A stretch of DNA of 64,000 nucleotides from a virus, in the IMG/VR virus record IMGVR_UViG_3300046524_000229, positions 43,135 to 107,134 of that record. One strand, 5' to 3'. This document shows, piece after piece, positions 63,689 through 64,000 of the stretch. The translations under genes were made by a program, and so were the position numbers. The stretch's first letter is position 1. Each line of letters begins with the position of its first letter. Under the pieces are notes generated by a model that ran no database searches, was not told where the DNA came from, and was given only the letters and a program-made list of their open reading frames with translations.

Positions 63689-64000
63689 AAACTGGACAAA
63701 CCCAAAAACCCGCAAAGCCTTACCCAGCTTGGCTTTCAGAGCTTCGTGTCCAATTTGTCCAAAAAATAAAATGAAACTGGACAGCCGCAAAGCCTTATCC
63801 AGCTTGGGTTTCAGAGGATTTGTCCAATTGTCCAGAAAAAATTTTCAACCATACCTCACTTTCTAATTGAGTAACACATCTTTTTACAAAACCCACAATA
63901 CCTCTCTTATATATAAATATATTTTTTAAAAAGTTCAAATATTATATATATATAAGACCCCCGGATTCTTAGACTCTAGGTGTAAACCCTATGTTTTTAT
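63689..64000. repeat. Second copy (left half) of the GTCC-box dyad, direct repeat of 6307-6618
   Basis: About 310 bases nearly identical to the left arm and centre of the palindrome at 6.3-6.8 kb (offset 57,382), with only about a dozen differences, then cut by the window edge. Differences include CCGCAAAGCC for CCGCAAACC and small changes after the AT-rich core. Again upstream of a - strand operon and without an ORF. The right arm probably lies beyond the window. Confidence 0.92.

Follow-up and report, generated by a model that had tools for sequence, protein, structure and literature searches.

Large tailed phages of the family described here carry two to five copies of a dyad element that are spaced nearly evenly around the chromosome and evolve in concert, and these dyads are quite probably replication origins, fired by a predicted initiator of the phage, Pri-Rep. 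With somewhat less assurance, we favour the fuller account that each large-tailed-phage chromosome has two to five sequence-matched, initiator-dependent origins, which selection holds at near-equal distances, gene conversion keeps similar to one another and a single Pri-Rep fires. To our knowledge, the replication origins of most large phages are unmapped, and a search of the open-access literature (subscription journals lay outside its scope) found no earlier description of such an element. If the account is true, these are bacterial virus chromosomes with multiple origins and a definable origin sequence. The candidate origin is recognisable by its sequence, its copies can be counted, and near-regular distances are held while copy number and position change. 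Two questions can therefore be put to direct test, namely whether selection for shorter replication acts on the distances between origins, and by what means a virus maintains the similarity of its several origins as the iterons differ from lineage to lineage.

The window, that is, the whole stretch of 64,000 nucleotides analysed here, corresponds to positions 43135-107134 and hence to the right part of IMGVR_UViG_3300046524_000229, a 107,134-bp IMG/VR phage contig referred to below as G000. A BLAST comparison of the window against itself aligned 6305-6618 with 63687-64000 on the plus strand at 96.8% identity over 316 columns (E 2.5e-149), which confirmed the near-identical direct repeat of about 310 bases reported at the window end in a preliminary description; the repeat is also, as described there, non-coding and located upstream of a minus-strand operon, and this was true of both window copies. 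An inverted match was obtained between 6827-6643 and 63681-63864 (77%). The first window copy, dyad 2, is a long imperfect palindrome with arms at 6305-6482 and 6643-6821 that share about 74-77% inverted identity. The second, dyad 3, is cut at window position 64000, where the source record ends, and its right arm is not contained in G000. The right arm that the preliminary description expected beyond this point could thus not be read from the record itself, but a complete orthologous copy is present in a relative, G002 (72640-73097), and is identical to the window copy over the compared 189-bp core. A further copy is located in inverted orientation at the opposite end of G000 (73-386), and both contig ends fall within copies of the element. 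The genome-wide count came to three in the G000 contig and to exactly three in a closed relative, G004, with positions and orientations as in G000. Table 1 lists the features of dyads 2 and 3. At dyad 3, the operon opens with a gene for a tRNA-His guanylyltransferase (62665-63504; PHROG 4717, E 1.5e-66).

Table 1. Dyad copies 2 and 3 and neighbouring features, in window coordinates
Feature	Position	Strand	Remarks or basis
Promoter-like motif TTGGTATAA	6287-6295	-	Adjoins dyad 2, pointing away
Dyad 2, left arm	6305-6482	+	TGTCCA/TGGACA iterons, several paired 8-9 bp apart
Dyad 2, left inner box	6465-6483	+	
Dyad 2, AT-rich core	6524-6574	.	
Dyad 2, right arm	6643-6827	-	Inverted iterons
Dyad 2, right inner box GGAAGTGAGGTATGGTT	6644-6660	-	Inverted relative to left box
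Terminator-like hairpin	6830-6859	-	Would halt minus-strand transcription ahead of dyad 2; sequence
DNA polymerase A	59011-60714		Marks, with the UDG-exonuclease gene, a conserved dyad site
UDG-exonuclease gene	61329-62582	-	Near dyad 3
Promoter-like motif TTGGTATAA	63653-63661	-	By dyad 3, pointing away, toward operon starting at 63504
Dyad 3	63687-64000	+	Left arm, AT-rich core and start of right half, truncated by contig end; self-BLAST, G002 ortholog
Dyad 3, inner box AACCATACCTCACTTTCTA	63847-63865	+	
Dyad 3, AT-rich core	63906-63956	.	Candidate DNA unwinding element

The window encodes tailed-phage proteins, including DNA polymerase A, a separate UDG-exonuclease, ribonucleotide reductase and functions in NAD salvage and RNA repair. 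There are also about 20 tRNAs, and an Rfam search of the window returned tRNAs and nothing else. Genes for the portal, capsid and primase, present in relatives, were absent from the G000 contig. The nearest cultured phages are Salmonella phage Arash (180.8 kb) and the Vibrio phages D69, D181 and D148 (about 187 kb). A search with the dyad DNA gave no matches to cultured phages, and only a search of Arash and D69 for repeats of their own revealed the relation; Arash has five such repeats and D69 three, all non-coding and with the same plan as the G000 dyads and different iterons. Further relatives were found with an alignment of the UDG-exonuclease, which identified eight of 168-193 kb with 2, 4 or 5 copies each. 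Each of the 11 relatives examined that were complete or nearly so (168-193 kb) had the element, in 2, 3, 4 or 5 copies. Four shorter contigs had a dyad immediately upstream of the UDG gene, and three others had none near that gene. The inner-box pattern gave two matches in bacterial genomes, neither with a surrounding dyad, and the Arash core pattern gave no match in IMG/VR.

In every lineage, the dyad has an AT-rich core located between oppositely oriented clusters of a lineage-specific iteron. The iteron is TGTCCA in the G family and in G009 and G010, AACTGGC in G011, GTTCCGA in G015, GTTACAA in Arash, G014 and G016, CGTAYCA in G012 and G013, and TGCTACA/TTGCAACA in D69. The top iteron words were roughly 30-90 times more frequent in the dyads than expected. 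The dyad cores were also the sole sites of their AT content in 7 of the 10 genomes tested, and this level is reached in G000 by its three dyads only; sites besides the dyad cores reach core AT content in D69, G011 and G015.

The dyads are distributed nearly evenly. On the circular map, the gaps between neighbouring copies were 39.7, 33.7, 38.4, 34.7 and 34.2 kb in Arash and 37.7, 34.3, 34.0, 34.9 and 31.1 kb in G012, with similar values in G013, G014 and G016, which places the spacing in five-copy genomes at 31-41 kb. Gaps of 36.7, 54.9, 51.6 and 41.6 kb were obtained for G010, of 57.8, 60.1 and 68.8 kb for D69 and of 46.3, 58.9 and 76.1 kb for G004. Copies in the two-copy genomes are almost opposite each other, with gaps of 98.5 and 93.9 kb in G015, 75.2 and 94.5 kb in G011, and 91.9 and 76.3 kb in G009, which is not closed and was treated as a circle. 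Combining the evenness tests by Fisher's method gave P 9e-8 for seven lineages represented by one genome each, P 6e-6 for four lineages picked to avoid sharing most dyad slots and P 0.0025 for the lineages without the Arash-like group, values that are indicative because the lineages share ancestry, and not fully independent because some dyad slots are common to several lineages; each two-copy genome adds little to them.

Gene order is broadly conserved in the family, whereas the copy number and position of the dyads vary between lineages. The slot between the UDG and primase genes is occupied in five lineages, that between gp238 and gp242 in four and that between the RNA polymerase genes in two, and G011, G015 and D69 have dyads in other slots. 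The GC skew showed no switch around the dyads, and a pooled rotation test of GC3 skew and gene co-orientation at the dyads was null; this is a weak negative for origin function since skew follows the coding strand in these genomes.

The copies within a genome are more alike than their positions would predict from other lineages. For the central 245 bp, mean identity was 91% within a genome, as compared to 75.5% between lineages at the same position and 74.4% between lineages at different positions. The near-zero position signal indicates that copies have been homogenised within each lineage. As judged from these alignments, the dyad copies evolve in concert, and gene conversion between them would be the simplest cause of the homogenisation. 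The preliminary description had attributed the preserved identity to selection, recent duplication or gene conversion; family-wide conservation and within-genome homogenisation agree with selection and concerted evolution, and recent duplication was not sustained.

The candidate initiator is the family primase, a protein of 980 aa. In an AlphaFold2 model predicted from a 12-sequence alignment (mean pLDDT 75.4, pTM 0.50), residues 105-365 matched DnaG primase (Z 23.9 to 5guj), residues 402-925 matched Cch of SCCmec (5dgk, Z 21.1, 391 residues) and residues 404-980 matched SaPIbov1 Rep (8tch, Z 20.4, 454 residues). The next fold matches of the initiator region were MCM helicases at Z 12-13, well below Cch and Rep. 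The gene product, Pri-Rep, is thus predicted by the model to be a DnaG primase fused to an initiator helicase of the SaPIbov1-Rep/Cch type, and its Walker A and Walker B motifs are kept in all lineages examined. Sequence searches were confident in the primase half only, which was also the only half covered in a search against solved structures; no Pfam family exceeded its cut-off in the initiator half, and a PHROG primase match extended over residues 625-843. The Pri-Rep gene of the window's own virus belongs to the segment missing from the contig; the gene was seen in the close relative G002 (L131). A dyad is located 3' of the Pri-Rep gene, between the primase gene and the polymerase/UDG genes, in 5 of 7 lineages, at a distance from the primase gene of about 0.6-5.5 kb in G004, D69 and Arash; no dyad adjoins the primase gene in G011 and G015. 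When the divergence of Pri-Rep domains was compared with iteron type, the winged-helix region was found to diverge fast with no clean tracking of the iterons, and a search for the iteron-binding protein among Arash-like genomes with differing iterons yielded too many candidates.

In the mechanism that we propose, the origin would be an AT-rich melting core between two oppositely oriented iteron sets. The phage Pri-Rep, predicted to consist of a DnaG primase, a self-loading helicase similar to SaPIbov1 Rep and Cch and a winged-helix-like region at the C terminus, would attach to the two iteron sets, load as a pair of opposed hexamers, melt the AT core and then prime synthesis. Several matching origins at roughly equal distances would copy the chromosome in a shorter time, and gene conversion between the copies would keep the origins alike in each genome. 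We infer that Pri-Rep binds the iterons, that the dyads fire and that several copies are in use simultaneously.

This arrangement has a counterpart in PICI origins, in which an AT-rich region is placed between two iteron sets and whose function was tested on plasmids (PMC6092414). In SaPIs, the C-terminal domain of Rep recognises the iterons, and the origin is found downstream of rep (PMC7581432). The dyads are similar to the SaPI/PICI origins of SaPIbov1 and EcCICFT073 in having two iteron sets around an AT-rich region, and similar also in that an initiator helicase, here with a predicted SaPIbov1-Rep/Cch fold, is encoded by the same element. The layout of the DNA and the predicted fold of the initiator were arrived at separately and both lead to this one known system; no other argument for origin function is as strong. 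Unlike SaPI/PICI, the phage family has 2-5 near-even, concertedly evolving copies per 168-193 kb tailed-phage chromosome, and its primase is of the DnaG type whereas SaPIbov1 and SaPI5 have an AEP (PMC7581432). We infer that the phage family operates as a SaPI/PICI origin would if it were repeated along a chromosome, with only the origin plan being shared. A PICI as a whole, meaning a small helper-dependent island, was ruled out by the complete tailed-phage genomes, which encode terminase, portal, capsid and RNA polymerase. In the predicted initiator part, the closest fold match was SCCmec Cch; in SCCmec, iterons are bound by the C-terminal domain of Cch2 (PMC7581432), but SCCmec differs in being a staphylococcal mobile element whose in vivo replication is not demonstrated.

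Among viruses, the 169-kb genome of phage T4 has five or more active origins that share no motif, and the iterons of its oriE are without an established role (PMC3016281). The phages studied here are like T4 in having several candidate origins on a genome of similar size and in the presence of iterons, as at oriE, but unlike T4, in which oriF and oriG use R-loops, the copies in one genome share one sequence. Phage ICP1 initiates from a single origin in early infection (PMC7145576). Herpes simplex virus has three redundant origins, OriL and OriS, with inverted initiator boxes about an AT-rich spacer (PMC12543377). This is a likeness in plan only, with no homology claimed, since herpes simplex is an animal virus with an SF2 helicase, UL9, short boxes and two origin copies inside repeats.

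We consider it unlikely that the dyads instead control transcription, as operator or enhancer arrays through which a phage regulator coordinates the adjacent operons. Several copies do have minus-strand promoter motifs beside them, each left arm faces an operon start, and the phage encodes RNA polymerase subunits and sigma factors. However, G000 and G004 contain 15-43 occurrences of the minus-strand promoter words, nearly all without a dyad, as compared to three dyads only; the word TTGGTATAA, for example, with 15 copies in G000 and 34 in G004, is nearly always dyad-free. Nor does regulation need near-even spacing and the most AT-rich core, and dyad copy number and position shift between lineages while gene order stays. 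Some viral origins serve both replication and transcription control, and the dyad region could have both roles. Another promoter-like word, TGGTATAA, was found on the minus strand only (22/22 in G000, 43/43 in G004 and 24/24 in Arash) and looks like a strand-exclusive early promoter.

Less likely again are chromosome-organising or partition sites, with centromere-like, anchoring or condensing functions, that divide the genome. The near-even spacing and iteron arrays with a cognate protein would fit such a structural role as well, but the AT-rich melting core within opposed iteron sets and the gene for a Rep-family helicase next to one copy point to initiation, and no partition protein was noticed among the gene products identified. 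It is very improbable that the repeats act as recombination sites or constitute a mobile non-autonomous element with the ability to delete, invert or circularise the 57-kb segment between the window copies, as the preliminary description had proposed for deletion and circularisation. The repeats are long, two direct and one inverted, and the homogenised copies suggest recombination by conversion. Yet the order of segments is broadly conserved in all contigs, none of which has a deletion or inversion at a dyad, and the segment contains essential genes, including those for DNA polymerase and ribonucleotide reductase, as well as tRNA genes. The conservation of dyad slots across lineages and over large divergence also argues against a transposable element or MITE.

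That the end copy is a mis-join, which the preliminary description had named as fatal to the repeat, is hardly credible even though G000 ends inside the repeat at both ends, as do all six ends of G000, G001 and G002, because the same copies with the same flanks occupy matching positions in genomes that were assembled independently, some of them with closed ends. G004 (181,435 bp) has an identical terminal overlap of 86 bp, and G007, which is 97-98% identical where aligned, reads through that junction; the genome of G004 is therefore closed, at about 181.35 kb. Of the three inter-dyad segments, G000 covers two, and G001 and G002 hold another two. The missing right arm of dyad 3 reflects an assembly break since the contig breaks within the element, and it is the dyad repeats that caused the breaks rather than the reverse. 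The repeats thus explain why such genomes assemble into fragments that end in one shared repeat.

Several other features of these phages were observed. A Ro60/TROVE protein (7114-8736), a Pnkp-like ligase-phosphatase-kinase (52099-54522) and a Hen1-like methyltransferase (54532-55833) constitute a phage-borne bacterial RNA-repair set. A tRNA with anticodon CTA (39441-39516) was called tRNA-Pyl by ARAGORN and is possibly an amber suppressor, and the region 29725-31613 contains tandem paralogous ORFs of about 117-119 aa, with DNA that is 83-91% identical in parts. Near dyad 1 of G004 there is a reverse-transcriptase-like ORF of 339 aa with a YADD motif (L052; 64856-65875, minus strand). The RNA polymerase beta-like gene (L050) is split in G004 (20895-24296 and 27234-28403) by about 2.9 kb and is a single ORF in D69; a second RNA polymerase subunit is encoded as well, together with sigma factors. 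DNA polymerase A (L085, L090) is one ORF in the G family and is broken up by short ORFs in Arash and D69.
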